From Fasciola hepatica (Eukaryota > Platyhelminthes > Trematoda > Plagiorchiida > Fasciolidae), in NCBI GenBank assembly GCA_948099385.1, contig CANUEZ040000193.1:1748501-1812500 (forward strand): a stretch of 64,000 nucleotides of DNA, in the 5' to 3' direction. The position numbers were made by a program, and so were the translations under genes. This document shows positions 1 through 64,000 of this stretch, in pieces. How positions within the stretch are numbered: position 1 is the first letter of the stretch; the number at the start of each line of letters is the position of its first letter. Under the pieces are notes generated by a model. That model ran no database searches and was not told the DNA's origin. It was given only the letters and a program-made list of their open reading frames with translations.

Positions 1-2290
1 TCGCATTCTTTCCAGTCAGAGGTGGGGGTAGTCGAGCGAGCATAGCTGAACGGGGCTGACATGAGCCATGCCTGACCAAAAGGTCACAGGTATAGGGCTA
101 TCAAGGAGTACCTTCGGAAAGCGCGCGTTTCTATTTGTGCTTGTACGTGCTCGTGTGTGTCCTTGTTTGTGCATGGAGAAGATGATCAGATATATCAGCG
201 ACGAGTTACACAGAAAGTCGACCATAAATTAAGTGAATAGGTGTCTAGGCCAAGACCATCAAAGGAGTTCATCAAATAGTCATGGCAGATGCAACAGTCA
301 TTTCCGTTATTAGGATCAGCAGTCATATCGAGTTGTCAAAAACATTGCACGCTAAATGCGCTTTAGATCAACACGGTGTAAATGCACTCTCCAGGTTTTG
401 CCTCCACACTCAACTACACATTCGCAAACCCGAACATACCAGTGAGTGACCACATTTACTTAGCTCGGCTGCTACCCTGCCAGATCAATGATGCATTCAA
501 ACCTAAGTAGTACAATTATTTCTTGCAACCACTGCTAATTTAGAGATAGGTTGAAATCACCCACTCACAATTCGCTCACCAGTAGACTCTTTACATATGC
601 CTACTTGGATGAGCTGACCCATCGTGCAAATGGGCACCAGCTCCTGAATTTATGACCTGGGGTCCCACACAGCTCAACGATGTCTAGAGGCCTGTGTAAT
701 TGCAAAGGCGAGCAGCAACCATCGTCAAATCATCAACTCAAACACTGTTTACCTTCGATGATGGTTTCTGCACATTCGGACAGCTATGGTATGCTCTTTG
801 GTCTTTCTGACCTAACATCACGGCATCGCCACTAGGATCATCAAACCCTAAGGCAAAACTTATAGAACCTTCATTCCCTCAGTGCTCCTATTGTGATTTA
901 TTTGTTGTACTGGTCACTGTCATGTATCATACGAAAATGCTGGAGAATGCCGTACTTCTTTCTAAGCATTTTGTTCACGGTCATCTCCATGTCGTTGTGT
1001 AAATTACAAGGTTCTTTAAGCTGAGGAGTTTCTTGACTGCACAATTTTGCCCTTTTCCCGGTTTGCTTATCCGATATCATTCCAGACTTCATCATCTTGT
1101 GATACTTGAGTAATCTGACTTGCCCAATCACCGGTACTTCCCGAATGTATATCATCAAGACATTCTCCTCGACTCTCCATCGAATGAACACTGACTAAAA
1201 ATTACTTGGCAAATGATCGACTGCTATAGAAGACGTTGTCGAGTTTGACGCTGGCTGCTTCCTAACCCTCAATTCAACAAAGACTGTTTCGATGGTCAAC
1301 CCGTTTGAGATTTGTGAGATACCATCGTCTTCTGCTTGACCAGTTTCGGGTAAAATAAAGCCTGAACACGCATCTGTGATTGTCGAAGTCAGTGGAGTTA
1401 CTCAAGACCCTGACACTCAGGGAGAAAGCTAAGAGTCCAATCACAATGGGTCGTGTGCATAGTAGGGTGCTGATACTATCTGGCATAGACAGTGATCTTG
1501 CCCTGTTATACGAATATGCATGATGTTTTCTATCGCTCTCATAGGTGACACATTTCTAATTGCTAGTGCAATCTGTAGCGTGATGTCGTAACTTATGGTA
1601 AACACAAAATAGGCATTGTTATTGCACATTGAAGTCAGCTTATTTGAATGGTGTGTGGGCAAGTATTATGACAGCACGTTTATGGAGACAGAAAAACGCG
1701 AAATGAAATCAGAAGACACACAAACTAGCACCGAAATGTACTCGTTCTTTGATAAATAATATAGGGCAGTTTGATAAGCATGAAATATGTAGGAGAAAAA
1801 CCTGAGCACAATTACTGATCCATAAATGATGATTGGTGGGCACTACCTTGTCAATTACTGTCACGTGATGAAGAAGCCCACTGTTATAATCAATATCCCA
1901 AGTTGCATTGGGATGAGATATACGTGACGAATAATTTGGTCTTTGGGAAAGGTGCCTGAGTGATGATAAGAGTAAAAACTGGGCAAACGAACAGTGATTG
2001 ATCAAAATGTGATTTCTTGTAAAATATGCGAGTTAGACTCAAAATCACACAGTTCTGAGTATACCAAGACGACAGTATCATATGTTCACACTGAGTGAGA
2101 ATTTGTTTTGGCTTTCTTAGCCAGAATTCATAATAATACTAGCAATCAGGGTCTATCTAGCTTGATGGAACTTCACCGACAGGACGAAAACATCAATTAG
2201 GTGGAGAAAGAAGTGGCTTATAGAAATCGCTTTTCGGGCTGGTAACCTAATTGAGATTTGCTTTCAATTTCGTTTGTTGGGTAGTAACTT
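1..2290. other. Outer left flank, no recognised feature
   Basis: No domain, RNA or repeat is recognised here. The longest open frames are below 100 codons and look like chance frames. If the inverted duplication continues outward, the partner of this stretch lies beyond the right edge of the window, so it cannot be tested here. Confidence 0.5.
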
Positions 2291-5200
2291 TATATATCTT
2301 CATTCGGCTGGTCAGTTCTTCCAATAAATCAGCACTCTTCGTGTTAGGCTCGGATGGGATTTTGAATCATTTAGAAGATAATGCAGTAGTGAGTGCTTCT
2401 GGTCGAACAAATACCCGAGCATCTCTCGGGATTGGTGTAGGAGGTGATTTATTTGAGCTCCTGTTGTATCAAAACCCTTACCCGTATAGTAACTCACAGA
2501 GCCAACCTTCAATATGGATTATAACACTGACACAATATTATAACTTGATATTATATTTTCAAGAACATCTGTGTCGTCCTCGAGGAACAAAAGTGCTCAT
2601 TTTTCGCCTCCATTATCAAAACTGAAAATAGTTCTGTGTTGTGGGTCTATAAAGCACGTATCGTAATAATTAATAGGATTTTCCTCGGAGTCAGCAACCC
2701 GTGAAGTGGAAACCTAACCTAAATTAGTATGAATCATGCACTTGAACAGTAATCACTCACCTTAGTAATCCCTCTGGTTTACTTTCAACCAATTCAAACT
2801 CTTTATCTCTCTCTATTCTTCTTAGTACCCATTGCACATTTTGGTTGGTTTGCGGGCTGACGACCCCTTTCCAAGTTTGGTTTGTATGTTTTTCTGTGTT
2901 GTGTCTCTATGTGGATACGTTGTGCATTGGTCTTCTCATTGTCGGTCTAGAATCACTGATTTGACCAAGCTGTGATCAATCAGATAAAGACGCTTGAAAT
3001 AATTTGCTTTATTTTCACGAATCATTAGACCAGTTTGACTGGGTTTAAACAGAAGTTTCGCCACAGAAGTCCTGCCACTTCGTATGAAGCAAATAATTTC
3101 CTATTCCGCTTTCTGGTTCTCCATATGTTTTACTTTGATCAACGGTAATGGTGACAATTGTGAGCGTTTCTCATTTATCTTCTCAGCGGAATTTTAATTG
3201 AGTCTAAGCTTGATTGGAATCACCGGGTCACATGCCTTTACGTGGTTAAATGGAGCATTATGAATAATTCATTTTTCAGCATTTACTAGTACTATTTTAG
3301 TAAAACTCTATTCGTTGTGAATAACTTTCACTGTGTCGTTTCATTGCTTGAAGTAGTTCACATTTCAGCTATATCGCTTTTTAAGTGCGTTAGATTTTTG
3401 ACTGAGCACGGTTGAAAATAATTGTGAGCTACAAATGCAGGTTTTGATCTGGCCAGACATCGAATCGAACTATGGATGTTTCGATCCTCGACTAGCGTCA
3501 CACGAGAGTCTGGTTGCTCGTATGTGACCATGCGGTAATTGCCATGTATGTGTGGTGTGTGATCGAATACTGCATAGCTGACAACAGTTTTACTACAAAT
3601 ATTTTATTACTAATGATACCATCTTACCCCTGTGTTCCGTGGCAGATCACGGAGGCTGTAGTACTAACAGGATATGGATTGATTCCGTCATATTGTGCAA
3701 AAACATCTTACAAACAAAAAAAAACGAAAAATCTTGTCATTGGATGAGGACGAACATTTTAATTTTGTTTGATATAACGATTTGTATCGGTTTACTTTGG
3801 ATTTTCCTCTGTTTTTAGTGTTTTGATACACTACCATTATTTGCATTCATTTTGGGCAGTTTATATTTTTACATATTTATATATATATCGAAGTATTTAT
3901 TTATGACTTCTGTCTGTATGTGATTTTCGCAAATTATATTGCTCAAGTCCAATGCAAAAGCACAATCAGATTTCGGAAGGCCATAATTTGCGTTACGTGT
4001 ACTTCAACAGACTGTTTGGCTACAGTTATGAGGGGTTTGTCAGAATAGATGACTGCCAACGTGTACCATAACGTTGAGTGGATCAGGGGGAACCCGCGTT
4101 TCCGTAATACGACAACAATAATGTTCATTTGGTTTTGAAATGAACGATATCCGTCATACATCGATACCAATGCAACTTTGGATTCAAAACATGACAGAAG
4201 GGAGGCCAAACATATTTGGAATGTATTTTGCGTGTGTGATGTCATAAAATCCAATACATCGGTGATACAGATTTTGTTTATATTGTTTTTCGAGTTTTTC
4301 CAACTGAAGCTTTTATTGGAGTGTCGTTATTACTGGATCACTTATTCTATTACATTGAAAAAGCAAGTTCTGATTTTTGAATACGGATTTATTTAACGCA
4401 TATCCAGTGCTTTGGAAGAATAACGAATCAAGGCACAATGGATCAGGCGAGTGAGGCAACCTACTTAAGAAAACAGTAAAGTTCACGAGAATGAATGGCT
4501 GTAACAATTGTTTTACGGGCTTTTCGGTTGAAACTTTGAGCCGCAAAATTTGTTTCCTCACCAGTTAGTTCTCGAATTTGAGAGGATTACCAACTTCAAC
4601 TTGAATGATCTGCATGAGGACACTGAGAAATAGACTCAACCTTCCGTTATATCGTAGACTTTCGAAATGCCACGCAGCTTGGTGGTTAAATTCGTTCTAA
4701 CATACATTTGTATGGCGTGCCGAAAACAATTTTGGATTTGCATTTTTTCCGATGCGTTTATTTGAGGCGTTAGCACATTTTTTTATTGTTATCGGTTTCA
4801 AAATCATCTTCATTTTGGCTTAGGTTACTGATGAGGTGGATTATAATGAATCAAAGGAATTGATGTCAGTTCATTGCCCTTACTTGAAACCAGTAGTTGA
4901 ATTTCACGGGGGTTTCCCTTTTCTCCTGAGGAAAACAACAACATTATATTGTTCACCTAAAATGTTTCGGCTGTTCCTCATCACGAACATTCTTAAATGA
5001 AATGCAAAGAAAATTGAGTAGGGCTCTCACACAACGGTTCGTAATTGTTCCTATGTTTATTAAAATCCAGCAGGATACTTTCGAATAATAGCAGCATATG
5101 CCTAATGAGGTGCATCAAATGTTTGTCCGGCTACCTCTCCTATTCTTCACTTTCATATTGGGGTGATCCATATTGTTATTCTTTCCTCAATAATCCCGTG

Positions 5201-6129
5201 CTTTCACTCGTCGAGAGCTGATGAATTTTGCTGTGAAATTATTTTCTTTCAAATACATCTGGGAATTCTCCACGAAAAACAATGAAAGTCAGTATAATGA
5301 GTACCCTGTTCAACTAACAGTTTGCATGTTTTTCTAAGAAAAAGTCAATCATTTTTGGAGAGGCAGATACAACTGTGGTTCCCCTGCACTTCGCTTAAGT
5401 TGTCATTCTATGCTACATTATCCTGGATTTTCAGGATAAGGTCACGAACTGTCGAGCATGCCGAAATATCCGTCTGTTCACTCAGTGAATTTTGCCCAAG
5501 TTGTACAACGACGATTTCCCGATTTTCTTTCGTGTTCTAGCTCTGACACAACGCATCAATGAATTGAAGTTGAACTATGCATTACTAACACAAAAGTGGA
5601 ATGAATTTATCTATCATGCCAACATAAATGGCCTACGTAAGTGTGCAATATACAGTATTTGAAAGCAAACATAACGATACATCTGATTCATCCCAAACTG
5701 ATTCACATCATCCATACTACATGTACTTTTGGAAGAATAAAAATGGTTCCCCATTGGCTGATTTGTTGCAGTTGATTCTTTAAATTGGGCCGCATGCGGA
5801 TGTTGCATGTGATAAGTTCTGAGGATTTTAACGGCCGATCCACCAACAAACTACCTTTGCCCCTATCATAAACTCTGGTACATTCCTATTACCAACATCG
5901 AAAGTCGTTAGAATATGATTTTTCAAGTTTTCATTCTTTAAGGAAGACTGTGCTCAACTACGGGATTTCATAAGGCAAAAAGCAACGATTAAAAGTTGAG
6001 CGTGAATTAGTTTCTACTATTTCTATGCGGTACGAAATGACGGGCAAGATCTTATGAGAATGTTCTTAATTAGCAGATGATCAGAGGGATGAACTGCACT
6101 TGATAACGTACAATAGTTCACTTGACTGG

Positions 6130-6762
6130 CCATAGTTGGTACTCCTGTTTCCAGGCTCACAACTCAGGTTAGCCGATAAACGTTGCACTCGCAAGCATCA
6201 GAACAACGTTCTTCTCTTGTTAGAGCCCATCAGCGGTACACATCCATTATCACCTCCAGGGTTTGAACCCGAGGGATTTTCTACTGAAGGGCGTGTTCAT
6301 TATCATTGCAACACCTGGCATGCCACCGGGCTTAATCATATGTCTTCCTCTACTGCATCCAGCAATGCCCGAGAGCTTCGAATGTAGACCAGGCATCAAA
6401 CCTTGGCAGGATTGAGACACTTTACCCATCTGCCCGCTTTGCATTTTCGATATTCGTGAACACTTCACAACTGCTTGGCAGCAGTTGTCGAGCACTGTCG
6501 GCTGTCATGGTGGACAACTTCTGGACAAACTTAACTCGGTAATTCGGATCGGCCCGGTTGGGTACGAGGTGATACAGTGGTAAGAAATACGCATTTCAGG
6601 TGAAACTTCCCGCGTCGAAACCTTGAACTTAGCAATAGATATGTACCATTGATAAGGTCTAACGAGAGAGGAACTCGAGTCTGGCGCTTCCGAGGGCAAG
6701 GTCGATCGGATGACCTGAGGTGTGTGAAACAAGTTCAAGCAGATTGTATTCAAAGTCACATA
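6130..6762. mobile_element. Inverted pair of tRNA-like SINE units, copy 1
   Basis: Two related units lie head to head. The minus-strand unit runs from a head near 6323-6334 down to about 6130, and the plus-strand unit runs from a head at 6551 up to about 6760. Each begins with a GGCCCGGT-like motif followed by a tRNA-like pol III promoter. On the minus strand, GGGTTCAAACCC near 6258-6270 fits the B-box consensus. On the plus strand, TGATACAGTGG (6570-6580) resembles an A box and GCGTCGAAACC follows. The spacer also matches the other copies. The matching right-arm copy is at 60100-60800. The element has no protein-coding capacity, as expected for a SINE that depends on enzymes from other elements. 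Confidence 0.7.
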
Positions 6763-6776
6763 CTACTCGCAGTGTA

Positions 6777-7000
6777 AAGTCTGTCCGAAAAAAATCGCGA
6801 TCACCTGGATTCGAATAAAACCTGACATACAGTCAATTTCCACTTTACAGAAATGATACTACTCTCGGTTGCTTAATTTAAACGATAAGCCCTATTCTCT
6901 AGCAAGGAGGATTAGTATCAGCGGGTAAACTTGGAATTCCACTGTATATCAGAATGTCGACCGAATTGAAGCGGTGCCGAAAATTTTTGGAATGAATGTG
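6777..7000. mobile_element. TA-flanked MITE, left-arm copy
   Basis: This is a short non-coding element with terminal inverted repeats. It starts AAGTCTGTCCGAAAAAAAT just after a TA and ends with a degraded inverse of that sequence near 7000. The same family is better preserved at 59301-59490. TA target duplication with simple inverted termini is typical of Tc1/mariner-driven MITEs, but no transposase is present, so the superfamily is inferred. It begins 15 bp after the inverted SINE pair and lies at the matching position in both arms, so it predates the duplication. The 3' boundary is approximate. Confidence 0.65.
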
Positions 7001-10000
7001 CATTTATTTCACTTTATATATTTAAACTTCGACTGCATGGGTGCTCACGTAATTGCTCATGATCGGAAGCTGAACGTATATAGAAGTCTTGTATCTTCTG
7101 AAGGGCGTGGACAAGCAGACCCACTCACGTAAAGGCGGATGAATGTTCCAGTTAGATGAAGTGTTTCATTCAGTGAGCATAGAGAGGCAGACAAAAAGGA
7201 TAGGGTTATTTTCGAAATTCATGCAAGTAAGACTGGTTTATAAAAGAGCGTCTGCTTTACATTGCATGTATTTGTCATATCGGATGTCGAGCTGTTTATA
7301 GGATGGTAAATTATGAGCAATTTTTGATAACTGATAGTCGATAAATAACTGAAGGAATAAATCAGTCATATTTCAAGTCACATCATCATGGAGTTCGTAG
7401 GAGACTGAGGTGTGCAGATCAATCACCGAAAATAACTAGTGAAATAATTTGATTTAGATCACAGAGATGAGTGGCAGGTTGAGAGCCCAATGCCGTGCAA
7501 TACTGTTACCTCTGAATCACTTTACTTTCAGTCGACCTTTGTGTGGAGACGTTCCCCGTCATTCTGTTCTGATGATGTCATCACCTCCGGTTCCCACAAG
7601 AAATGCAATATGTCATGTAGCCATTAGTGAGTATATGTATCTGTTATTGATGCGAGTTGTTACCAATTCATTTGTCATCATGCGATCAGTATGTGCTCCA
7701 TATTTATGTGTGTCAGCGCCTCAAAGTAAGTAATCGCTTTACAAACCAGCTTCTGCACTTGTGCACCGTGTATTGATGATAGACAATAATAATAGGAGGA
7801 ATGTTCCGTAATGTGTATTTGTGTGCATTTGTATGTATTTGTATCCGTTATGAGGCACTACCATTGTTCGAACCTTTGAATGCGTTCGGACCGAGCTTAT
7901 CTGATCTTTCGGTCGATTTTGGCTAGTGCAAAACGCACGCAAGCACACCATCATCGGCCTCTGGAAGTCTGGGCCTTGCACACAAATAAAACCAGCACAA
8001 ACACCAACTCCCATAGCTCACACTCCGCTGTCGCGTGAGCTAATTATCACCCGATGCATAATTCGGCCATCGGCACATGTTTCTTGGTTGAAGTTGACTC
8101 CTTCATTCTCCCCTGGTACATCTCTCCATCACTTATTAGCGAGACTTGTTTCCCACTTTTATCAATAATTCGTTCTCACATAAATATGATCTTACTTGCT
8201 TGGGAGTGAAATCATGGAAGCACATTTATATATACAGAACATAAAGGATCTTCGCTCATGTATTAACTGAAAAAACTATCTGGTTGCCAAAATTATCCGG
8301 ATGAGTTGCCCATTTGGTTTATAGTAATTGCCGTGGTACACTTATCCGTTCGCTGTTCATCGCAGGAGGAATTGGAGTATACCATCCCGGTTCCTTTTCC
8401 AGAGCCAGTATCCAGACAGAAGCTGTCGTCTACATGCTTTTTAATAACACATAAACCGGTGATAAGGAATTAATGTGTAATTTTCCATCTTTGAGATGAA
8501 TATATTCACAGGCAGAGGAAAAAGTGGGGATCGCACTGCTATGCCATCCATTTGTCTCAGGATGTTTCTTCGTACAAAAACTAGAAGAGTTTGTTCAAAA
8601 TCTAGAGGAAACAAACAATAATCATTCCTTTCCATGTCACTGGTATTTATGCTAAGACAAACGGAATGCGTGTTCTCGAATTGAAATGAGCTAAGTCAGA
8701 TCAGATCATTCTTCTGTCTTATGACCAAGTTCATCTCACAGATGATAATTAGGCTATCTTTAAAGATACTTTCGAGAAGTGATCAACACAAATCTCAGAT
8801 GAAAACAGGGATTCAGGATGACTGATTCACAAGCAGATAACACTGCACAGTTTTGTCATCGTCTCAAAGGTATTCTTCTTCTCAAAAACAAATAACAGTA
8901 CTCAATAATGTGCACGTCGTCCACCTAATTCTACTCTCAGTTATCTGTACTGATCAATGACTAATAAAATGAAATCAAGCCATATTCCTATTTGGTTTTG
9001 TGGTACACTTTATCGTTGTACGTGAACGGAAAGTATAAGCGATCTTTTGTAAGTTTCACATTCAGTTATTTGTAAAGTTGGTCACAAAAAGGAAAGTCCC
9101 AGATTCGCCGAAACAAATCCGGTGGCATACGGAGCAGTCGGTCAGACTTCTACATCACTAGCCACACTGAATAATTTGAACGTCATGATTTTATTAAATT
9201 GTTGTTTCGATTAGCTGATTAAATTGTGAGATCCACAAAGACCAGTGTTTGCCAAACACTCCTCCAAAATATGGTACGCAATAAATTTCGTCCTACAAGC
9301 ACTCGTTTGCACTAACATTCTTTACTGTAAAGTAATTGAGAATCAAGAATAATGTTATTATTCGTTTACAAATCGACAGTCAGTATCAAGCATTGTCCGT
9401 GATATCATGTAATTGATTAAGTTGTAATATATGACTGTAATGTTAAAACCTCATTGAAACTTTTTACGTGCAAATCTAATTGGGAAGCCGCTGCCATCAA
9501 TTCGACTCACACTTTGAGTATGTCAAACAGAGATAACCTCGAAACCATGATCCCATAATTCCATCATCCTACTAACAGAAGGAAGCACTGGAGGATGACA
9601 TTATTTGTTTCATTTCATATAATTATCAAAACGTGAAGTGGTTGCTAAATATATTTCAAATATCTACAAGTATTATTCTGATATCTCAAATGATCATCGT
9701 TGCATCGTATAGTACATCCCATTGGTAAGTGATTAAAAGTTTTTATGATGTTTCAGAACAACCAATTTATTCGTTGGTTTTTTCGCGCGAATTCCCTCCA
9801 GATACTTGTCACCCCATCTGCAAACAACAGACTTTTGAACAATAGAACTCATTGAAACTGGGTGGTTGTTCATGTTGTGCTCTCGATAGCTTAACTAATG
9901 AATACAATGGCCTACTAGAGAAAAACGAGATCTTTGGAGTTCCGATAAGAGTGTGCATGAAAATATGTACACTCAATGTAAGATTTCATGATTACGAGAA

Positions 10001-11721
10001 AAACTTTCATCTTCTCAGTTATTGAGAAACTCCTCAAAATTCAATCAACCGTTCAAAAATATGCCGTGCGCTTTTTCACTTCAAGTTTATGCACAATCGC
10101 AAAATGTAGGCATAACGGTTTTCGTGGCCGTAAATATGTTATTTCTCTTAACAAGACTGCTTCAAAGTTCTTCCCGTTCGCAATCACAAAGAGTTTTCAC
10201 AAATTGGTGTTGCTTACTCAGTAAACAAGACATACTTGTATAGATTTTTTCAAAAAATTGATGTATTTGCAATAAAATTCTTCTCTTTCACCGTCCAATT
10301 CGCTGCAGATTACGACAAACTAGGTAAGTTTAGGAAGTTCTGTTGTGCTCCATGTATTATTGTACTTGAAGTGGTCATTCGAGTTAAAATGAACTAAAAG
10401 GATATATGATTCGAATTCCTTCCACACAGTCGTTTTCTGACTTGGGATACAGTGTAAATTTTTGACCATATTTCGTTTCGTCTGTTATGGTTTGGATTGA
10501 TTTTCACGGGATGTCCAAGTGACCGTTTGGATGAACATATTTCTGGACGAGTCCCGCACGGCCAGTTAGAAATAAGGCGGCTGTTTTCTCTAACGCAATA
10601 TGTCCGTATTTTTTATATCAGAACTACGTCAGAAATGTGTGCCCATGAGAAGACTCTTGATGGAAGACATAGGCTAACCTATGAAAAGCGTACAGTTGGC
10701 TGTCAGTTAGTAGTCATAAGAGATTAACAGAATTCGTGCTGACATAGGCGAACTGATATAATTGATAATGTGACTTCCTTTTTATCTTGATTTTACCAGT
10801 ATTTTGGGCACGACATGAACAGCAATTGTCTTTCTGTTATTCTTTCCGATTGATTCAGAGGCCAGTTTGGAACGATGTAAACCAACGATAAGATCTATGT
10901 TTGTTTTCGGTCTCGGAATCCAAAGTTATATGAGACAGATAGGAAACGACCCACAAAGTGAGTACATATTCTCCGGAAAAATGAGAATATTATTTTGGGG
11001 ACGGTTAACGTATTTTTATTTGCATGGCAATATAATGTAATTACTATGCCGAGTTTTCAGATATTATGCTCAAAAATAGAAGGAATATGAAAAATAGGAA
11101 GGATATCATGAATAATAAAATATTCCGGTACATAATAAGAATCATTATAACTGGTATATTTTGGTAAGTGAAAAAGTACAGGGGAACTCAGTTAGTCATA
11201 GAGTCGTGTATGTAAATCAGTTCAATCATTTCCCGAAATAACTTGAAATGATCCAGTTTTGAATCAGATCGTGTGAGAGAATGTTCCATTGGAGACAGAT
11301 ATCTAGTAAAGATTCTGAACTTGAGGTTTTAGAAAAAACTTGACTATGAACAACATCATCAGCGTATTCAAATAAATCGGACGAAGGGAGATTCCGTTGG
11401 GTCATTGCTATATGAGTTTAGTGAGAAGGAACAAAATAAAGTCATCATGGATAACTCCAGAATTGTTGACGCAACGTTTGGAATATTTGTACCCGACTCA
11501 TTTGTCTGAATTTAAGTATGAAAATAGTCAAACAACTGAGCAAGAAGTTGTGGGGACAATCTATAATATCAAGCTGATGAAAAAGTGGAAGGAGTGCTGA
11601 ATCTGATTGAACGGGATAATATTAATATCAAAACGAAATGAACATCGGGCAGTTCCAACTGGTCCGTTTGGGGTTAGGATTCGGGGGGTGTATTCGATAG
11701 GGTTCTTAGGTGACTAAATAT

Positions 11722-11932
11722 AGCTGCAATCTCATTTGAATCGAATGGAGCGTGCATTGGCAGAGAGTCCATTTTTAGAAACATACGGTGATTCTTCCAA
11801 ATTGGATTTGACGAATAGCACGGCTCACCTTCAGAACGAGGGCGAATTAACTATAGAAGAATCACCGTGTGTTTCCGGAAATAGACTCCCCATTCATACG
11901 CACTCCATTCGATTCAAATGAGGTTGAAGCTG
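11722..11932. mobile_element. Hairpin (foldback/MITE-like) element
   Basis: A near-perfect inverted repeat has arms of about 70 bp around a loop of about 55-60 bp. The left arm starts near TAGCTGCAATCTCATTTGAA and contains ACGGTGATTCTTC at 11787-11799. The right arm contains GAAGAATCACCGT (11858-11870) and ends ATTCAAATGAGGTTGAAGCT. No clear target-site duplication was identified. It sits in a left-arm stretch (about 11.2-13.1 kb) with no right-arm match, so it is probably a late insertion. It directly adjoins a repeat that recurs at 16.0 and 48.8 kb, and may be the terminal part of that repeat. Confidence 0.65.
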
Positions 11933-12105
11933 CACACCAGCTGTGGAGTTCTCCAGTATAAGGACGACTGGGCAAAAGGGTACCGGGTTTGCATAACCGA
12001 TGAGCATCAATAATCGCGAAAGTGGTCGGGTGCTTCCGGGAAAATGTTGTCCTGTCATCCACACACAATACCATACAACTCATATCGAAAATAACTAAAT
12101 ATACC
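11905..12105 (+). repeat. Dispersed repeat R3, copy 1
   Basis: About 200 bp recurs at 15935-16175 and 48722-48955, always on the plus strand. Shared landmarks are CGAAAGTGGTCG followed by a GTGCTTCCGGG-like stretch, then CATCC and ACACAATACCATAC-type sequence, ending in ACTCATAT. No coding capacity or promoter boxes were recognised. All three copies face the same way although the arms around them are inverted, so at least some were inserted after the duplication. Confidence 0.55.
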
Positions 12106-13212: not shown

Positions 13213-13232
13213 ACCCCCCCCCCCCTCCCCCC
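13213..13232 (+). repeat. Poly-C tract
   Basis: A cytosine run interrupted by one T follows a block (13150-13212) that matches 53208-53270 inverted. The right arm lacks the run, so it expanded in the left arm only. Confidence 0.8.
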
Positions 13233-24304: not shown

Positions 24305-24440
24305 ATTATCAGTATTTGCCATGTGATCATAGTGTTCTGACGGTCATCATGGTGGACACTCAACCCTTCTGTCCTGTGTTCGATTTCTGCCTCCAAAGTC
24401 GGTCTATTTCCCAAATCGGCAGCCTCCAGTTGGCCGGAAA
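24305..24440 (+). repeat. tRNA-like SINE-C head, left-arm copy
   Basis: About 135 bp match the reverse complement of 36985-37110. The sequence has tRNA-like organisation with GTTCGATTTC as a B-box-like motif (24378-24387), then CAAATCGGCAGCCTCCA (24413-24429). Flanking sequence on both sides also matches between arms, so this copy was present before the duplication. Family identity is unknown. Confidence 0.5.
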
Positions 24441-24778
24441 CCTTTATAAATAATCTAATTCGCACTGATAAACTATCGAGCTTGTATAATTTCGGTTTAG
24501 TAAGCACTGACATTCGTCAAACAATATTTGATCAAGAGCAACGCGGAAAAGTATGGAAATGATATGTTCACCGGATAAACACTTGCAAATAACGGAAAAT
24601 ATCCGCCATTTTTTCACACAGCCTATACTATTTGCTGACTGTTTTGTGGGCTTCATGAGAATAAGAATGATTTAAAATGTGGTAATCAAATTTGTTCATG
24701 ACGACATTTTCTAGTAAAAAACAGTATTTTTCAATCATGCTGGGATCACCAGAGACTCAATCAAACTAAAATGATCCG

Positions 24779-25033: not shown

Positions 25034-25095
25034 GTACTCCCCTCCCCTCCCCCCCAGAGCATCGCGACAATGTGTTTAGGTGCTTGTGGAAAAAA

Positions 25096-51199: not shown

Positions 51200-52040
51200 A
51201 GTTTTAGTTGATTATATATATATACATATATATATATATATTTATATATATGTATATATATAGGGATACATATATATTATTGTAGTACAAGACATTCTAG
51301 ACTACAACTGCGGAAATATACATCACATATCCTTGATGCAAATTTTCACTGAAAATTACTACTTGTAACGGTAATTTGGTACATTGTGTGAAATACCCAC
51401 GCAGTTTCCTTTTCTCACTCACCTGACTCCAATCAGCTTGCTACCCGGTCCTTCTCAACAAATTCAACCTACAAGTCTTCCCTTTCTCTCACGTGTTGAA
51501 CCCGGTTACCTTGCCTCGTTTCACCTACCGTCTTCCTATGAGAGTACTTTTACAGTAGACCGATTTTCCGTTTCCGGCCAATCCAGGGGTCTACGACCTT
51601 CACGTTTTAGGCGCCATATGTACCTGATCTTGTGTGTCATGCTTACCTCCGGTCTCTGTTCACTTTCTCACTCGCACCGCACGGGTGACCTTTGTACTTT
51701 CCTTCCAGGCTGGAGATCCCGCTATGCCTGCGTGAGGGTCTAGGTCAAGCGTGAGTGTGATTCTCTTGGTCCTTGTCTGAACTAATTTCATGGTCATATC
51801 CGTCCCTCCGTCTCATGTACGCTCATCACTCTTTCCCTGATTGGTCGACAGTTCTTCCTATAAAAGATGGATTTCGCCGTATTCTAATGACTCGGTCCCG
51901 TATTGCTCGGCATACGTTTCTCAACAGACCCTTCAGACGATTTGAAGTCCATTTCCGGACCCTTGTGACTGGATTGCGCCACAAACAGAGGTATGTTGCT
52001 TGTAATTGCAATGACTGTTCTCTTTCGCCGTTTCACCTTA
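51200..52040. other. Right-arm-only block starting with a TA tract
   Basis: The left arm is continuous at about 14450-14600 where the right arm has this extra sequence of roughly 0.8 kb. A long interrupted (TA)n tract (51214-51262) marks one end, which would fit the tail of a minus-strand non-LTR insertion, but no head or domain was recognised. The plus strand is pyrimidine-rich between 51400 and 51750, and frames of about 120 codons there have biased composition and no recognised motif. Confidence 0.4.
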
Positions 52041-55000
52041 TTCGATTTTGGTTTCGGGTTCGTGTTCTACAAGTTATTCATTCACTGGACAGCAGTTCAG
52101 TTACACTACTGGTCCTGATTTCCACTGTATCATCTTTCATCATTTGACTCCCTCGATTTTGAGAACAGACGATTTTGCAAGAAGCATTTATAGTTTTATT
52201 GAACGAGTCATAGGTAACAAGGCGCAAATTATCAAAACCAATGGTAGCGAAATTACACATTATAAAAAAAACGTTTTGATCCGTATTCTGGACCTTCATG
52301 ATCAGCACAAAGTTGCCCAATGTTATTTGTCTCTTCTGGTAGTTTCGTTTAGCATAGCTGTTGCCAAATCCACTTGGAAAATGATAGCACCAATTATCTC
52401 GATTATCTGATGTGCTAAAGCTGTTGCACTTCGGATTGTTGGTAGTAAGGAAGCTGCAGAAGTTGTCGGAAATAAAAGCATTTTTCAAAAGGGAATAACA
52501 ATCACTGAGTATATAACAATATTACAGAAATGATAAGACTATTATTGTGCACAAATTATTGGGGCTCAGTGTGATAATCTGTCAAGGTGGTAAAACAGTC
52601 GCACATGTTCTCGTGTTCCAGTACAAATAAATCTACCATGAATAAGCCTCCACGAGTCTGGCTTTGTTCTTTACACCAAACATATATTCTTATCTTAAGG
52701 AAGTCGCATTTTCTACCTTACGATCTTTTAAATAAATTGAGTGATATCTACTAAACGATCCTCATACAAATGTTTTTTTGTTGATGCACACCTCTGGTCT
52801 CGCAGAATTCTCATGATAGTTTGATGTATACTACGGCGTGTTTTTCGATCGGATGAGTTAGGTTTTTCTCCTTCTGTCAAGTTGGAATTTCGTGTAGTCT
52901 TGTAAATTTCCATGCACCGTCACCGTAATTGTTGTGTCCAAAAATATTACATCTTGAAAATCATAACTCTTATAAATCATTGCGCTTCGCACAGATCGAA
53001 CCTGGATCAAAACATGTCAATGATCTGGATGGCAATCTGCTCTTATCAGCACCTCTTCTGCTAAGATTGCTGTGCTATCCTGAAAACACGAAATCATATA
53101 CGCAAAAGTGAGATTTCTGTTCGAGAAAGGTGGCTGAACGTGAATGTTGACTCTCTGGTAAGCGTAGATTGGTTTCAGTGCTCCTGTTAAGACAGGTTAC
53201 CATGGAGAAGTAATATGGGGCAGAGTAGCGACCTACTCCAAATAATCCAAGAGAGGCAAAACTAGTGTTTTATTCAAGTAATGACTAAACATATTGACTA
53301 TCTGGCTACTCCGTGTTTTCTGAGATTGTTCTCGTTTCCAGGGTAAATTTAAAACAAGTGCAACACGTACAACTTCAAAAACTAGGACAACATGTATTTA
53401 GCCCTCTTTCGCCTACAGTCGGAAGTCAATTCTTCCTACAATGCATTTACTACACTTGTAGTTCCTATTAGGGATGACAAGTTAAACATTATTAGTTGCG
53501 ATTTTAATCTTCGTCTGATCTTTGTCTAAGATGAGGCCAGTCAAGTACTAAGAGTTACCTGGGATAACAATCTAGAGTAGACCAATCGTATTCGAAACTA
53601 TACCAGAAAATCAAGACTTCTTTCTTTTCAAACAGAGAAACTCAATTTGGACAAGACATACAATCACTTCCAAGTTTTCTCAAAAGTGTTGTTCCTGTCC
53701 TACTTAATTGTTTCCTTGCAAATAGTGTAGGTCTTCTGAAACGCGGTCTCGAGGCTCTGCGTCTCGATGTGGCAGTTGTAAGTCGCGTTCCATCGTTACA
53801 CGCAGATATTTATTTTACTGAACCGCTGATCAGTTTAGTATAGCCTACGAGGTACTTCAAAACCCTAATAATCTGTTACACACAGGCAATCCGGCCTTCT
53901 TCATTTTGAATGAATCTGTTGAGAACCCCCCAACACCTTATCTTACTCGGGTTCTGACCAATGCAGAGAATATAAAAGAGATCGGCAGGCACGACCCTCT
54001 GCTCTTTCACCTAACAAACCGCAACAGGTATAATAACAATTAATATATACCTAAAAGTTTTATTATTTGTGATATCCTGCTTATTTCTCATGTTTCGTTT
54101 AATATTTTGCGTACAACAACTGAAACCTCTGTGCACTGATTGCATTAGTTAGCCGTGCGAATCAGAATACTATGAGTTCCCCAAAATAATTATATTATTT
54201 CTCTGGAAGTAATAGCTTGAATGAGATTATATACTTACTTTGTGGGTCGTTTCCCATCTGTCCCATATCTCTTTGGATTCCGTGACCGAAAACCAACAAA
54301 GATTTTATCGTTTTTTCACATTTTTCAAAACTCGTCTCTAAATCGATCGAAAAGAATAACAGAAAGAACAATTGCCGTTCATGGCATGTTCAAAATATTA
54401 GTAAAATTCTGACTGACAATTTGATTTTGAAATCATGATGAAAAGGAACTCACGTTATCTACGAAAACAGCCTGCCTACTTGAGCACGATTTCTGTTGAT
54501 CTTATAATCTTAATCACTGACAGCCAACTGTACGTTTTTCTTAGGTTAGCCAATGACTCTCGTCGATTCCACCAAGAGTTTTTCTCGTGGGTAAATATTC
54601 CTGACGCAGTTCCGGTACAAAAAGATGCCGATATAAAGTGCCAGAGAAAATAGCCACCGTTTTCCTAACTGCCCGTGCAGGATTCGTCCACAAATACGTT
54701 CAGCCATACGGTCAGCTGGAAGTCCCCTTGTAAACTAATTCACAACCCAACAGTCTGAATAAATATGGTCAGTAGTTTTTAATGTGTGGAGGACATTCAA
54801 ATCACACTCGAATGACCAATTCAAGTAAAATCTTACAATCAGCTCAACTGGATAACCTGAATTTACCTAGTTTGTCGTAATCTGCAATGAATTGGGAAGT
54901 TGCAGAGAAAAACTTGAATACAAACAAATCAAGATTTTGTCGAAAATCTACACAAGTAGGTATTGTTTACTGAGTAAGCAATATCAACTCGAAAAAAACA

Positions 55001-58000
55001 CTGATTGTCAATGTGAAAAAATATAAAGAAGTCTTGTTTTCAAAAGAAAACACATGTACGGTCAGAAAAAACGTTAAGCTCCAATTTTGTGACTGTGATA
55101 AGCCTAAAGCGAAAACGCGCAAATCCCATTTTCGAACAGATTTATGACATTTGCAAAGTTTCTAAATACCGTAGAAGCCGAATATTTTCCTTGCAATTAG
55201 GGAATCGTAAAATGAGTGCACCCGTTTTCACGCGAAATCTCACCGGGGCTTGGAAAGTCTCGTTTTGCTTTATAAGTCACGTGCACTCATTGTTTGAGCT
55301 ATGAAGAGCACAACATGAACGTCTGCTCAGTTCCCGTGCTTTCTTTCGTAAAAAAGCCTGTTATCCGTATGGGGGATGAAAATTATCTTGAGGAAATTTG
55401 CACGACAAAATGAGGGATTAAATTAGATATCCTGTAATACCAAAAAATCTTTTTGAACACTTACCAATGGGATGTACTACACGATGCAATAAAGGTCATT
55501 TTGGATTTCGGAATAATACCTTTGGGTATTCAATATAGATTTGGAAATCACCTTTCTCTTTGATAATCATATGAGGTGAAACTAATGATGACAATATCCA
55601 GTGCTTAATTGTGTCAACAAGATGATGGAACGATGGGAGTCATGATTCAGAGGTGTTCTTTGCCTGGCGTATCCATAACTTGAACCGAGTCGACGGGGAA
55701 ATTGTGAACAGCCACATTTGATCGGCCACCAGATTGCAAACATCAAAATCTTTTCCTCATTGGGATTTGAGCCAATCACTCGTTCTCCTCAGCAGTTACA
55801 TCTTTGAGAGCAATATCTTTTACACCTTGAACAGCTCGGGTAATGGCGAGATTATTTAGAATATTTGGATTTGTGATTTAATTTCATACTTGTGATGACG
55901 TATTATTCGGCGATCTGTTCGTGGTGTGACCGGTAGTCCTAATGCTCATGTATTTTGAAACCACTGTTGAGTTTCGCTAATTTTCCAGAGAGTGAGGCAC
56001 AAGTCGCATAGAAAAACATTTGCTTTTTTCATGAAAGCTAACATGGATTTATCGCCTTCATCTTCAATCAAACAACCGTCCCAAAAACTGCGTTTTTCCG
56101 ACAAACAACGCTAGAAAATGAGTTGCATTCAAAAAGGGCGTTCAAGCTAGTGGTGATTGGGAGTAATTCATTTCAGTCAGTATTTCAAACAGCTTCTGGA
56201 AAACACTGATCTGTGTTGATCTCACGATTTAGGCAGATTATTGACAAAACATAATAAAACCATGACCTTAAAGCTATTCAGTGTGGCTATTGATGCAGGA
56301 GTCGGAGCGGTTGCTCGGTATGCGACCGGATTTATTTCGGCCAATCTGGGGATTCTTATTTCATGGCCAACTTTTAAATAACTGAATGTAAAAACTGCCT
56401 TAGGTAAAATCGTTCCATATTCATTCCCGTTCATGTGATGAGATAAAAATCATTGTTAGACCAGATAAGAATGACCCTTGTTTTTACTTGTTTGTCATGG
56501 ATTATTAGGGATAGCTAGGAGCAGATTCATGGAGACAACTTGCACGTATTGAGGTAAGATTAAATGGTTTTGAGAAATGGAATACATTTGTAGGGTTGAT
56601 CCCAGTGCCCAGTGTTCGCCGTTTGTGTTCAGTTATCCAGTAGTCCTCATTCCATTTGAGAGTCTGCTTTGATGCCTTCTTGATGGTATCTTTAAAGATA
56701 CCTTACGTATCATCTGCGAGACGAGTTTGGTAGTGATACTCAAGAGCTATCTGATACAATTTAGCTCACGTTATTTGGTTAACGTACATCAATGTTGTAT
56801 TTCGCAGGGAACTTATCATGATTGTTATGGGTGATAAAACCAATGACTAGCGCCAGAATATTCGATTTGCCCTAGCATACCTACTAGTGACATGGAAATG
56901 AGCAGTCATTCCTAATCTTGCTTCTGTTGACGGAAATGCGTGAAAAAAACAACCTGGCACCTGTCCAATCGAATTCAGGAACACCATCCGACATGGTTAG
57001 CCAAAGGGATCAAAGAGACTTCAACCAGAGCCATACTTGCCCGTACAATCAATGTCGGTGACACTAACTCGGGATGGGCCATTTAGAGTTATCTGCCGTG
57101 AGTCAGCAAACCACTCTAAAAGATTCAGATTCAATAAGGCCGAAGCAATCGCATTCAAGTCAAACAGACCGACCTTGTGCTCGGAAGCTTAGTGTCTAGT
57201 TCTTCCCCTTAACAACGATAAACAAACGAATAATGGCTTGCTCTAAGTTTCTAAAAATAAAAATTTTTTTCCCACAGCCCAGTACTTGTTGGTCACCGTT
57301 TTTGATACTGTGTAATCATCTATGGGTATTCTGCAGAGGGTCCTTACGCATTGGATTGCACAACAGCTACGCTAAAATGGTGCACATGAAAATCGTAAGC
57401 ACGTTGATGAACTCACATGCCTGCATAATTTCGCTCTCGTGACTGTTGAGCTTGGTTGAAAAGTGTTCCATTCTGGACAATGCTAGTTCAAATGCAAATG
57501 ATGTAGTTATCACAAGCCTGCATGTATCGAACAAGATATAGACAGAGTTGTCAAAAATAGAGCATAGTAGCCGGTGTGTGCCTCCTTGTTTACTGGATAA
57601 CAAATGAGTTCAAGATTGGTTACTGAGACCTTTCATTAGTGTCACCGAACTAGGTATACAGTATACTTCAGAATCGTTTCACTGGATGATGGGAATGCCT
57701 AAGGCACCATGAAGGAACAAAGACGGATGTTTGGTCTGAACACAGTGTTATCCAGTTTTGTCAAGTATGATCGGCATTCGACTGTTCACCAGAAGTATGA
57801 TGGTCGACAGTGGTGGGGCTCGCACATTTCACCCGGAGGGTAAAATGAGCTTTCGTCAACTGCCCACTGCGACCATGGACGATGCACTATATACACCACA
57901 CCAGATCAATCCCTGTCCTTAGACAGTGCTTTGCAAAAGAAAGACAACCATAAATTTATCATTAGGTATAAACCTTTGGAATCAGGACAATGCCATTTTA

Positions 58001-59300
58001 AGTGTAGTATTCATGTGATAATTCCACTCCAGTCGATAACGTTCACAGAATCACATCATGACCATCGCATCATTGTAAAAACTTTACTCTACTAGTCTGC
58101 GAACATCCCGAATATAGGTGTTTATTCCCCCATCTATTCTTCAGGGAACCGAAGATCTGTTTTGGACCGATGATTCGAGCAATGGGTTATTCGAGATGAT
58201 GTGCGTGCGTGCGCGTTACATTAGGCAGAATCGATCAGCAGAACGCTGTCAGACGTTCGGACAGTAGCGGTACCTAACAACGGACATAATGCACATTCGT
58301 GACACAAATGCAAACACCAAAACATCCATTTTATCAATTCTGCATATATTCAATTTGCAGAGCACCACTGCACCAGTTGGTGAGTGAGATGCTTACTCAC
58401 TTCGGGGAGCTGGCAGACATAGATAAAGAGAACATATTGGTCGCACGATAAAAAAGGAGTTAATGAGTACTCACATCAAGGACAGATACATGTGTTCACA
58501 AATAGCTACATGTCAGACAGAATTTCGAAGGAGAGTAAAGTGATTCAGGGCAAACAACACTGGACAACATTGGGCTCTCACACTCCCACTCATCTCTGTG
58601 ATCTAACAATAGATCGATAGGTTATTTTGAGCAACGTTTGAGTCGGTAATTTTGCTTCAGAAAAATGGACTGGCTTATTTTGAAATGCTAGCTCAAAACG
58701 CGGCTATTATATCAGTTTATAATAGGAAATTGTCTCACTATTCCGCTGTTCACGTAATTCTGAATAGCAGTTCACCAAAAGTCTCCTAGCATGTCTATCA
58801 CATACATGCCCACTTTGCTAGAAGCATTAACCATACCAAACTCTTTGTACAGATTTCCCCGGTGATTGAGTTGCATACATCGATCGTCTATGAACACCAT
58901 GGTGAGTTCACGTGAAATATGACTGGTTTATTCCTTCAATTAACTAAAAGCTTTCAGTTACTGGAAAATTGCTTTTAATTTGCCCTTCTATATGCAACTC
59001 GATATCCAATATGACAAATACACTATCCATCATGCATCGTAAAACAGACGCTCGTTTATACACCAGTCTAACTTGCATGACTTTCGAAAATAACCCATTC
59101 CTTTGCCATCAGGTTGTCTATGCTTACTCAACGAAACACTTCATGGACCTGAGCGCTCATACGCCTTTACTTGAGTGGGCCTGCTTGTTCACGCTCTTCA
59201 ACAGACACAAGAATTCTATATATGTTCAGCTCCCGACGATGGACATACATGTGAGCACCCGTGCAAATACAATTTAAATGTACCGAGTGAAATATGTGTA

Positions 59301-59490
59301 CATTCTGTCCGAAAAAAATTGGCATAACCTCGGAGGGGTCGAAATCCTGACGTGCAGACGAATCCTCATCTATATTACTGATACTTCTCCTCCGCGTTAA
59401 ACGATAGTATCGGTTGTGCAAAGTGGAACTCCACGGTATGATGGAACTTCGACCGAATCGAATTGATCCCGATTTTTTTCGGATAGACTA
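59301..59490. mobile_element. TA-flanked MITE, right-arm copy
   Basis: This 190-bp element is flanked by TA on both sides (59299-59300 and 59491-59492). It starts CATTCTGTCCGAAAAAAATT and ends with the inverse, GATTTTTTTCGGATAGACTA. The inverted termini extend about 45 bp (GGGGTCGAAATCC near the start; ACTTCGACCGAATC near the end). It has no coding capacity. It lies at the position matching the copy at 6777-7000. Confidence 0.8.
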
Positions 59491-59849
59491 TACACTTCAC
59501 CACGTGTCAAGCCAAACACTGCAAAGGGTCACCTGACCTGATCCCCTCTTCGGTCAATAGTGCTACGTAGTGAATCTGAATGAAGAACAGTTTGTTTCTT
59601 GAATCAGTTCCACAATGACCAACGTGAGTGAATTTAAACGAGACGTTTCTCGTCCTGTGTAGTTTCACTTAACCCAGTACCATTTTAAAGACTTTTCTGG
59701 TCACTATAATATGATATTTTTGGGAACTGTCTTCATTTAGCGGTAATCGTAGTTTTTTTCCGCGGTGTCTTTTGCAAAACAGCGCTTCGGTAGATCACAT
59801 TGGAGAACGACATCGTCGAACCAAGAAGCTGGTTATGGCAGTCTGCGAT

Positions 59850-60095
59850 GATAGTCAGTTTATGAGAACACTGTTTGGTGAACAAGCTCGTTTTCAATGA
59901 TTCGTACTCAAGCCATTACATCACAATACATAACGATAAGTTACGAAATCGGACCAATTCGAATTATTGCAAGTGATAGAGATTATTGCTGATATGTCAG
60001 CATTGTGATGTAATGTCATGAGTATGAATCACTGAAAACGAGCTTGTTCGCCAATCTGTGTTCTAATCATGTGCTCACTGGGAGTAATCAGACAA
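59850..60095. mobile_element. Hairpin (foldback/MITE-like) element, right arm only
   Basis: The inverted-repeat core is very clear: GGTGAACAAGCTCGTTTTCA (59878-59897) to CATTACATCACAAT, mirrored by ATTGTGATGTAATGTCATGA (60002-60021) to GAAAACGAGCTTGTTCGCC (60034-60052). Weaker symmetry extends outward to about 59850 and 60095. The loop is about 70 bp. In the left arm the MITE and the SINE pair are only 15 bp apart at this position, so this element (within about 600 bp of extra sequence) inserted after the duplication or was lost on the left. Confidence 0.7.
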
Positions 60096-60099
60096 CATA

Positions 60100-60800
60100 G
60101 ATGGTTACTGTAATGAATTGTCTTGGACAAGATTTTTCACATACAAACCTCAGGTCATCCGATCAACCTTGTCCTCGTAAGCACGAGACTGGAGTTTTCC
60201 TCTGGTTAGAGCTCATCAGTGGTACATATATATTGCTGGGCTCAGGATTTCGACCCAGAAAGTCTCACCTGAAATGTGTGAGTGTTACCACTGCACTACT
60301 TTGCCCGCGACCGAGCTAACTCAAATAACCAAGTCAGGTTTATTGAGAGGTAGTCCACTATGACCCCAGGCAGTGCTCCATGACTGCTGGCAAGCAGTTA
60401 TGAGGTATACACAAATGTCAAAATCGCGAAGCGAGCAGATGGAAGTAGTACCCCAATTCTACGGAGAAGACATGACTTGGAGAGAGGTATTCGCTCGAGG
60501 TCAACGGTATGATGCCGTATCTATATTCGAAGCCATCGGGCACTACTGATTGCCTTAGAGGACGATATATGAACAAATATACCTCGGTGATTTGGATGAG
60601 CCCGGTCGGGTGCGAATTGGTACAGTGGTAGTACACACATCCTTCAAGTGTGCATATCTCGGTCAAACCCTAAGCATGGCAGTGGATATGCACCGCTAAT
60701 TAGTTCTAACAAGAGAAGATCTCAAGTCTATTGCCTCCGAATGCAACTTTGGTCGGATAACCTGATGTGTGGTATGAAAAAGGAAGTGCAAACTACAATC
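60100..60800. mobile_element. Inverted pair of tRNA-like SINE units, copy 3
   Basis: This is the best preserved copy. The minus-strand unit (head 60303-60316, tail toward 60100) has a perfect A box TAGTGCAGTGG and GGGTCGAAATCC about 32 bases later. The plus-strand unit (head 60600-60612, tail to about 60800) has a perfect A box TGGTACAGTGG and a B-box-like GGTCAAACCC. A-to-B spacing is tRNA-like. Both tails share TCTAACnAGAG and GTCGGATnACCTGA-type sequence. The spacer of about 290 bp contains a direct relative of the region just upstream of each head. It corresponds to 6130-6762 in the left arm. Confidence 0.75.
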
Positions 60801-63462
60801 AATCAAGTAAACTATTGTACGTTGTCAGTTGCAGTTTATCCCTCTCACCATCTGCTAATTAGGAACATTCTCATAAGATTTTCCCCGTAATGTTGTACCG
60901 GGTGAAAACAATCGACACCAATTCACGTTCAACTTATGATCGTTGATTTTCGCCTACTTAAATCCCGTAGCTGAGCACAGTGTCCCAAAAATAAATAAAA
61001 TTTGAAAAATCAGATTCTAATGAACTCTAACAATGGCCATAAAAATGTGCTAGGGTTCATGACACCAGAAAAAGCAGTATGTTGGTGGAGCCGCCGACAA
61101 AATTCTCAGAACGTATAAAACACAATACCCGCATGCGAAATGCGATTCGATTTGAAAAATAAATTGCAACTAATCCACAAATGGGGATTCATTATTATGC
61201 TTGCAAAAGTAATTTTAGTATGGGTTCTCCCAATTAATTTGTAATAGGACACATCATTATATTCGTTTTCAAATATTGTATCTCGTACACTTACGTAGGC
61301 CATTTATGTTGGAATGATAGATAAGTTCATTCCACTTTTGTGTTAGTATTTGATAGTTCAATTTGAATTCGTTGATGCGTTGTGTCAGATCTGGAACACG
61401 AAATAAAATCGGAAAATCGTCACTGTTCAATTTGGAGAAAATTCACTGAGTGAACGGATTGATGATTCGGCATGCACGACAGTGCGTGACCTTAGCACGA
61501 AAATCCAGGAGAATGCAGCAAAGAATGACAAGTTCAGCGGGGTGCAGCAGAACAATAATCGAATCTGCCTCTCCAAAAAGCTAGTTGATCATGTTTGAAA
61601 AGAACAAGCAGATTTTCATTGAAAAGGGATACAGATTAGGCTAACTTTCATCGTTTTGCGTGGAGAATTCTCAGATTATTTACGAAGAATGAAATTTGCA
61701 GCGAAATTGATCAGTTCCCGGTGAGAGAACGCAGGATTGATAGCCGGGAAACATTTGATGCACCTCATTAGACGCAAGGTATAATTATTCGAAAGCATCC
61801 AGCCGAATTTTAATAAAAACAGGAACGCTCACGAATGCTGATCTGATGGCTATTGTAATATGTTCATGATATGAAACAACCGGAACATTCAAGATGAAGA
61901 GTGTGTACCTACAATTTGTTGGTCTTTGCAGGAGAAAACAAGGACCTCTTAAGTTCATCTGCTGAGTCCTAGTGAGGGCAATGAACGAACACCAGTTGCT
62001 GAGATTCATTTCAATCATGTTCACCACCAACCTGAGTTGAAAATCAAACGATTTTGAAAAAGATAATAAAACAAGAAGATCTGCGAAGACCCCAGTTTCG
62101 GGCACCGGAGAACATCTGAATCCCAAAACGTTACCGGTGAACAATACTAATATATATACATAAGAGAGAATACAACCAATGAGCTGCATGACATCCCGAA
62201 AGTCTATGACATCACCCAAGGTTGAGTCTATTCTTCGTGGTCTTCATGCAATTATGGTAAGAGAGAATTGGTCATCCTCCCAAATTCGAAATCTAACTGG
62301 TATGGAAACAAGTTGTGGAGCTCAAATTCCCTTTCGAAATCACCTGAAGCACACGTTACAACCATTCATCTTGGTGAGCTTTACTGTTTTCTCAAGTAGG
62401 TTGTCCCACTCGCTTATTCTATTGTGCCTTGAGTCTTTGTTCCTGAAAAGTACTGATGATACAATAAATGATTCTTATTCAGACATGAGAAATTGGTTTT
62501 TATTTATTGCCAGAAAACTGACTAGTGAAACAGAATAACTGGTCTAACAATACCGACACGTCAATATTAGATTCGGTAGGTAAAAAACGAGCCAGCCCGT
62601 TGACATACCGTGACTTAAAATCGACGTACTGGATTTCGTGGTACCACACATGAAACATAGATTCCAAATATGTTTGGGTTAAGTTTTATCAAGCTTTCAA
62701 ACTAGATTTATATTGGGATTATCATACTACTCTGCTGTGTGACAAATATAAATCGCTTCAAAAACCAGCGGAACACCATTGTTGTCGTATTATGAAAACG
62801 CTGGTTCTATCTGACTCATTCAGTTGAATTATGCCAATCAGCTGTTCTCTGTTTTAGCAAACCCTTTAAAATTGAGGCGCAACAGCCTGTTAAGATAAAC
62901 AGAGCGCGATTCGGGGTCTTCAGATATCTGATTGTGATTTTCCATTGGATCCAACCAATATGATTTGAAAAAATTGCATACAATATGAAGAAAAGCTTCA
63001 ATAATTACTTCTATATACATATATATATATATAATGTATGTAAGGCATGTTACACGGTTGGTTTACATCAAGAGTGGTCCCAATGTTAACTTAGCTTGCA
63101 CAATAAACCAAGAGAACTCACCGTTGTCACCATTCACGTTGGTCGAATAAAAACATATGAAGAGCCAAAAAATGAACCAGGCAATTATGTGATTCACACG
63201 ATACAGCAAGATGTCCATGATGAAACTTCTGTTTGAACCCCGTCAAATTTGTCGAATGACTAGTGGAAACAATGCAAAGCTTCTCAAGCCTGTTTAACCG
63301 ATTGGTCACAGCTTGGTCAAATCAGTGATTCTAGACCGACAATGAGAAGACCAATGCAAGACGTACCCGTATATAGGCACAACACAGAAAGACATACAAA
63401 CCCAACTTGGAACGAGTTCGTCAGCGCGCAAACCAACCAAAAGTTTCAACGGGTACCGCGAA

Positions 63463-63495
63463 GGAGAGAGAGAGAGGGAGAGAGAGAGAGAGATA
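63463..63495 (+). repeat. (GA)n microsatellite
   Basis: About 33 bp of GA repeats are interrupted by GGG. The matching left-arm site (2803-2816, TCTCTCTCT on plus) holds only about four units, so the tract expanded in the right arm or shrank in the left. Confidence 0.85.
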
Positions 63496-64000
63496 AAGTT
63501 TGAATTGGTTGAAAATTAACAGGAGGGATTGATGAGATGAGAGACTAGGCTTGAAGTACATGATTCACTGTAATTTATGTTAGATTTCAACTTTACGGTT
63601 TGCTAACTCCTAGTAAAATCCTATCAATCATCACGAGACATACTTTATAGATTCACAACAAGAAACTCTTTTCAGGCGAAAGGGAAGCCCTTTTGCTGCT
63701 CAAGGATGACACATGTTGAAAATATAATATGATGTTTCAATATTTTGCTAGTGATGTGATCCATATTGAAGGTAGCTCTTATCATGTGTTGTGCAATACT
63801 ATACGGGTAAGGCGTTGATGCAACAGGAGCTTAAATAAATCACCTCCTACCCAATTCCCGAGAATTAATCGGGAATTTATTCGAACAGAAGCGCGTATTA
63901 GTGCATTCCTTTTAAATGGTTCTACGTTCAATTCAAGCCCAACACAGAGAGTGCTAAATTATTAGTAAAACTGGCCATCCGAATGAAGATTTGTTAAGTT

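Follow-up and report, generated by a model that had tools for sequence, protein, structure and literature searches.

The stretch of Fasciola hepatica DNA analysed here (the window; 64,000 nucleotides, C193:1748501-1812500, where C193 is contig CANUEZ040000193.1) carries two predicted genes that face each other from the two arms of a large imperfect palindrome. Gene A lies on the plus strand (3084-14213) and gene B on the minus strand (52323-63218), and each comprises four exons that splice to products of 133 and 140 amino acids (aa), respectively. In gene A, coding exon 1 (3084-3159, 76 bp) is signal-peptide-like by eye and ends in phase 1; it is followed by exon 2 (5541-5636, 96 bp) and exon 3 (10859-10957, 99 bp), both with phase-1 introns on each side, and by a terminal exon 4 (14083-14213, 131 bp including the stop codon). 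The corresponding exons of gene B occupy 63122-63218 (97 bp, likewise signal-peptide-like by eye), 61295-61390 (96 bp), 54239-54337 (99 bp) and 52323-52453 (131 bp including the stop codon) of the minus strand. The exon structure is the same in both arms, as in an inverted segmental duplication of a gene, with conserved splice sites (the AG and GTAAGT sites of exon 2 among them) and a single intron phase (phase 1) throughout. Relative to gene A, exon 1 of the sister copies has seven extra upstream codons.

The exons were found by scoring AG...GT intervals between the two arms. Intervals 5541-5636 and 10859-10957 ranked above all others scored, with identical phase, and the two exons are 91% and 84% identical between A and B, exceeding the means of their blocks (z 5.1 and 3.8). 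Open reading frame (ORF) calling misses these exons because they are too short, while the between-arm scoring detected them; an earlier note on this DNA, made from the sequence alone, had placed the palindrome in non-coding DNA, and what had appeared to be a giant non-coding palindrome is thus a gene array. Two further candidates were not retained. An interval at 13085-13169, prompted by matches on contig C120, was dropped, there being stops in all six frames of 13040-13220, and a conserved stretch at approximately 2.87-2.98 kb, initially read as an exon, is more likely upstream or untranslated sequence since a sister copy has a 10-base gap there.

Alignment of one window half against the other returned 24 inverted rows. 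Six of these reflect AT-repeats and one aligns the 14.4-15.8 kb block in an alternative way, and all seven were set aside. Eleven of the remainder are collinear blocks whose order is exactly reversed from 2286/64000 inward to 27728/36223 (rank correlation -1.0); six further inverted rows lie off this diagonal (rho = -0.43, p 0.08 once they are added), and weaker same-orientation matches between the halves are also present. The left (A) arm, on the plus strand, comprises nine of these blocks (2286-15817), paired with the right (B) arm on the minus strand (49983-64000), and an inner left block (24119-24544 and 27266-27728, with a retroelement relic between the two parts) pairs with an inner right block (36223-37329). 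The inverted similarity, which is collinear across introns and flanks, is real: the best of 20 dinucleotide shuffles scored 36.8 bits and none gave a match of at least 60 bits, against a maximum of 1437 bits and 13 such matches in the actual sequence. The blocks cover 10,946 bp on the left and 10,867 bp on the right, about a third of the window, and 16-50 kb is largely unpaired except for the inner blocks at 24.1-27.7 and 36.2-37.3 kb. Accordingly, the pairing proposed in the earlier note stands as regards its inverted and collinear nature, but in 11 blocks rather than more than twenty, and it does not organise the whole window. Both arms run on beyond the window, the right one as had been anticipated: window positions 51-2107 pair with DNA past the right window end, and on the left side the arm extends outward from the window at increasing identity.

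Per-block identity is 66-79% with gaps and 68-77% without, at transition/transversion ratios of 0.98-1.60, and no codon periodicity was found over whole blocks. These values agree with the earlier view of an ancient inverted duplication whose divergence is mainly substitutional. The accompanying claim that insertions affect one arm only did not hold, since both arms have indels; the insertion that is clearly one-sided is the pol relic of a retroelement (24.5-27.3 kb), which splits one inner block.

Three of the blocks were searched against the assembly (1.4998 Gb, 656 contigs). All 16 matches of block 9494-11183 fell on C193 (1.110-1.901 Mb), as did 14 of the 37 matches of block 12931-14414 (1.107-1.903 Mb), the other 23 being pieces of 79-405 bases elsewhere. 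Block 5192-6725 gave 163 matches, and among those listed there are nine near-full copies on C193, the ones on other contigs falling in the part of the query occupied by a fold-back element (query 931-1534). Among the matches listed, long block copies are therefore confined to C193:1.107-1.903 Mb, only short repeat pieces occurring on other contigs, and neither a pattern of scattered, non-collinear inverted hits alone nor the recurrence at hundreds of sites in varied order, which the earlier note had named as fatal to its palindrome, was seen. Its suggestion of an amplified unit was right in spirit, as the pair recurs along C193.

The matches on C193 fall mostly into class A (84-98% identical to the left arm) and class B (69-73%). 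At least 12 A- or B-type places are spread over approximately 0.8 Mb, and copies are named by type and position in kb on C193, those of the window being A1753 and B1809. The order of the 12 assigned places is A-, B+, mosaic-, B-, A+, B-, A+, B-, A+ (window), B- (window), A+, B+. Since three convergent A+/B- pairs follow one another in this series, the pair would seem to have been copied as a unit. All four exons could be seen in eight copies, five of which (A1582, A1753, B1513, B1655 and B1809) retain their reading frames and splice sites; the other three have a stop in exon 3 (A1864), an altered exon-3 donor (A1439) or a changed first codon, with another ATG in frame further downstream (B1302). 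The four partly seen copies are all damaged or without some exons: exon 2 is interrupted by a stop in A1117 and by a frameshift in B1171, B1901 was seen at exons 3 and 4 only, and the copy at 1241-1252 kb is a mosaic whose exon 2 reads as in B1302 and whose exon 4 is A-like, its exon-3 splice sites being altered. Intact and broken copies of different ages thus occur together at the locus, as in a birth-and-death array.

The relative ages of these events were assessed from the exon-2 block of eight copies. Kimura two-parameter (K2P) distances are 0.280-0.328 for all 15 A-B pairs, against 0.032-0.166 within A (10 pairs) and 0.038-0.137 within B (3 pairs), and the unrooted tree of the eight copies separates A from B. 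As all A-B distances exceed those within types, the inverted duplication predates the spread of the copies. A second stratum lies further out, where A-B identity without gaps rises from 0.73 in the old arm to 0.76, 0.80, 0.82 and 0.88. Comparison of five 5' flanks revealed that, more than approximately 4.0-4.4 kb upstream of exon 1, A1753 resembles B1809 and B1655 (78-90%) and is unlike A1582 and A1864, which are themselves 94-97% alike. It seems that a B-type flank later replaced the A-type flank of A1753, and because this flank is B-like, the palindrome may be described as an old arm to which a younger stretch, lying mostly outside the window, has been added on the outer side. A relic resembling a long interspersed nuclear element by its reading frames (L009:4092-8036, left of the window) is 85-89% identical between the A and B flanks, above most of its surroundings.

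The spliced left-arm model was searched against the non-redundant protein database (nr) at E ≤1 by a method that requires shared five-residue words and similar length, and which distant relatives may escape. Three matches were obtained, all from F. hepatica (P0002, P0003 and P0004), and a profile search (E ≤0.1) returned the same three proteins; no micro-exon gene member was among the matches of either search, and the family was matched only in F. hepatica in nr as searched. Sister copy B1513, spliced in the same manner, equals P0002 over 140 of 140 residues, so that the gene models are matched by an independent record, which also agrees with F. hepatica, or a very close relative, as the source of the DNA. 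The product of gene B is identical to P0002 at 132 of 140 residues, and P0003 equals A1582 over the 64 residues of exons 1-2 (by eye). The analysis supplies four-exon models for a family represented in the searched database by just three F. hepatica proteins, listed as unnamed or hypothetical. The best sequence match in the PDB was weak (E 0.071), no precomputed Pfam domains exist for P0002-P0004, and an AlphaFold2 model of P0002 built from three sequences was all-helical and poor (predicted local distance difference test score 55, predicted template modelling score 0.35). From the look of the first exon (by eye), the product is probably a small secreted protein of 133-140 aa, for which a role at the host interface may be envisaged. 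A literature search found no paper naming D915_007529 (P0004), and the array is not named in the papers listed by further literature searches, some of them listed in part, which does not establish its absence from print.

Estimates of nonsynonymous (dN) and synonymous (dS) divergence for the window A-B pair were 0.236-0.251 and 0.150-0.173, respectively, the ranges reflecting the codons used. With the intron difference assumed to be 0.27, the synonymous difference falls below it (binomial p 0.002), indicating that the exons are more conserved than the introns, although no clear signal emerges at the protein level. A test for positive selection gave no support for it.

Taken together, it is very probable that the palindrome represents a convergent pair of paralogous genes that arose by an old inverted duplication and now sits in a local array of similar copies. 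On this account, a single gene was duplicated in inverted orientation long ago, together with its introns and a few kb of flanking sequence, leaving a tail-to-tail pair (A on the plus, B on the minus strand); A- and B-type copies then spread locally, now forming an array of at least 12 irregularly spaced places along approximately 0.8 Mb, presumably copied as a pair and by unequal exchange, and were reshuffled (one mosaic copy, one replaced 5' flank), several of them decaying. The predicted secreted protein may thus be subject to birth-and-death evolution. Several observations weigh against this account. The A and B classes are not perfectly clean, as several in-between pieces are 76-81% identical to the left arm. 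Neighbouring places are irregularly spaced, approximately 37-137 kb apart, and only three of the six neighbouring A/B pairs, consecutive ones, are convergent. Other repeats, in direct or inverted orientation, are numerous in the 200 kb around the window, and some of them are more alike (e.g. 92.5%) than the A/B arms are, so that the locus is a mosaic rather than a simple series; most A- or B-type copies outside these 200 kb were seen in pieces only. Diverged family members may exist on other contigs. Furthermore, nr lists P0002 and P0003 as 'unnamed protein product' and P0004 as 'hypothetical protein D915_007529', and none of 15 comparisons among six copies departs from neutrality (smallest Fisher p 0.19), i.e. 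protein-level constraint was not seen. Two of the in-between pieces, on the minus strand near 1199 and 1227 kb and at 77-78% identity to block 9494-11183, were assigned to neither type and may represent a third.

The failure to reject dN = dS in any of the 15 pairs is also what would be expected if the gene copies were neutral relics in a functionless array, their frames being open owing to the youth of the copies, and three of the eight fully seen copies carry one of the defects listed above (a stop, a changed donor, a changed first codon), with all four partly seen ones damaged or incomplete. However, the reading frames of A and B are still open and their splice sites preserved despite a K2P distance of approximately 0.3 between their introns, and both the excess identity of exons 2 and 3 and the low synonymous difference run counter to neutrality, which leaves this explanation unlikely. 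At the other extreme, the A/B pair could be a maintained diversification cassette, in which two diverged secreted-protein genes in opposite orientation are copied together; were this so, occasional A/B exchange, of which the 1241-1252 kb mosaic and the A1753 flank might be instances, could give rise to new host-facing variants, but we regard it as a distinctly doubtful proposition.

The remaining explanations concern the palindrome itself. Two copies of a giant dispersed mobile element, inverted by chance, would account for the recurrence on other contigs of the fold-back element and of short pieces of block 12931-14414, but the confinement to C193 of block 9494-11183 and, among the matches listed, of the long or near-full matches of the other two blocks, together with conserved frames that belong to an intron-containing gene without transposon domains, makes this very unlikely. 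Adjacent inverted copies are the usual product of recent fold-back amplification and of assembly inversion artefacts. Approximately 27% substitution with indels in both arms is nevertheless incompatible with a recent event or a read-through, as the earlier note had rightly argued, and the other A and B copies on C193 give the same A-B distance, so that both readings are highly improbable. The ampliconic palindromes of the primate Y chromosome consist of large, near-identical inverted arms carrying gene-family members, and the present locus resembles them in its two inverted arms, each longer than 10 kb and bearing a family gene, and in the spacer between them. The sex-chromosome palindrome that had been suggested, taken here as one with arms kept alike by gene conversion, has next to no probability: it is contradicted by F. 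hepatica being a hermaphrodite (PMC4404566), and the arms are 66-79% identical rather than near-identical. The arms are approximately 27% diverged and copies of the same type (A-A, B-B) much closer, the opposite of what arm-to-arm conversion would produce.

The convergent pair in its array is an architecture of a known kind. Like tandem or segmentally duplicated gene clusters under birth-and-death evolution, it shows local amplification, with copies of different ages, some intact and others broken, next to one another; it differs from them in that the F. hepatica unit holds an old inverted pair, because of which some neighbouring genes are convergent. Schistosome micro-exon genes encode small secreted fluke proteins from phase-symmetric exons, many of their coding exons being of 36 bp or less. 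The present genes are likewise fluke genes with phase-symmetric exons and small, predicted secreted products, but their four coding exons of 76-131 bp are no micro-exons. Tandem-driven gene expansions have been reported in F. gigantica (PMC8519440) and S. mansoni (PMC5613093), and the word 'inverted' does not occur in the main text of these papers in the portions available. Because the split into A and B, the later copies and the replacement of the flank are of different ages, the locus shows in layers how inverted gene pairs come about, multiply and decay within a large, repeat-rich fluke genome.

The unpaired spacer contains two segments in the same (plus) orientation that read as older relics: an upstream/exon-1-like segment of a more diverged paralogue (28715-29085, approximately 59% identity, no GT donor) and an exon-2-like segment (35166-35523, 62.5% identity, altered donor). 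The left-arm-only interval at 24545-27265 (minus strand) carries the decayed pol relic, presumably of Gypsy type, with RVT_1, RNaseH and rve pieces below the Pfam cut-off. The fold-back (inverted-repeat) element lies at matching positions of both arms (6158-6724 and 60091-60826) and is for this reason probably older than the duplication; contigs C41 and C312 contain further copies of parts of it, spaced in satellite-like steps of 451 bases. Reverse-transcriptase-like frames, which we take by eye to be Penelope-like, occur at window positions 29990-30927 and at L025:5947-7593; the 549-aa frame of L025 matches RVT_1, and those of the window matched no Pfam family. Among 137 window ORFs only retroelement families were found in Pfam at E <0.001, 20 weaker families (E 0.002-0.05) being taken as chance, and 88 flank ORFs likewise gave only retroelement families at E 0.001. 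There were no hits in Rfam at gathering scores or with ARAGORN, nor for one block searched against a phage collection. A 79-85-base piece of block 12931-14414 occurs five times on C120 (near 6.54, 6.64, 6.76, 6.88 and 7.11 Mb), and these recurrences, in steps of 104-231 kb, may mark another segmental array. Additionally, a perfect tandem duplication of a 219-base unit (42953-43393; 2.0 copies, 100% match), which looks very recent, lies inside a 172-codon open frame.

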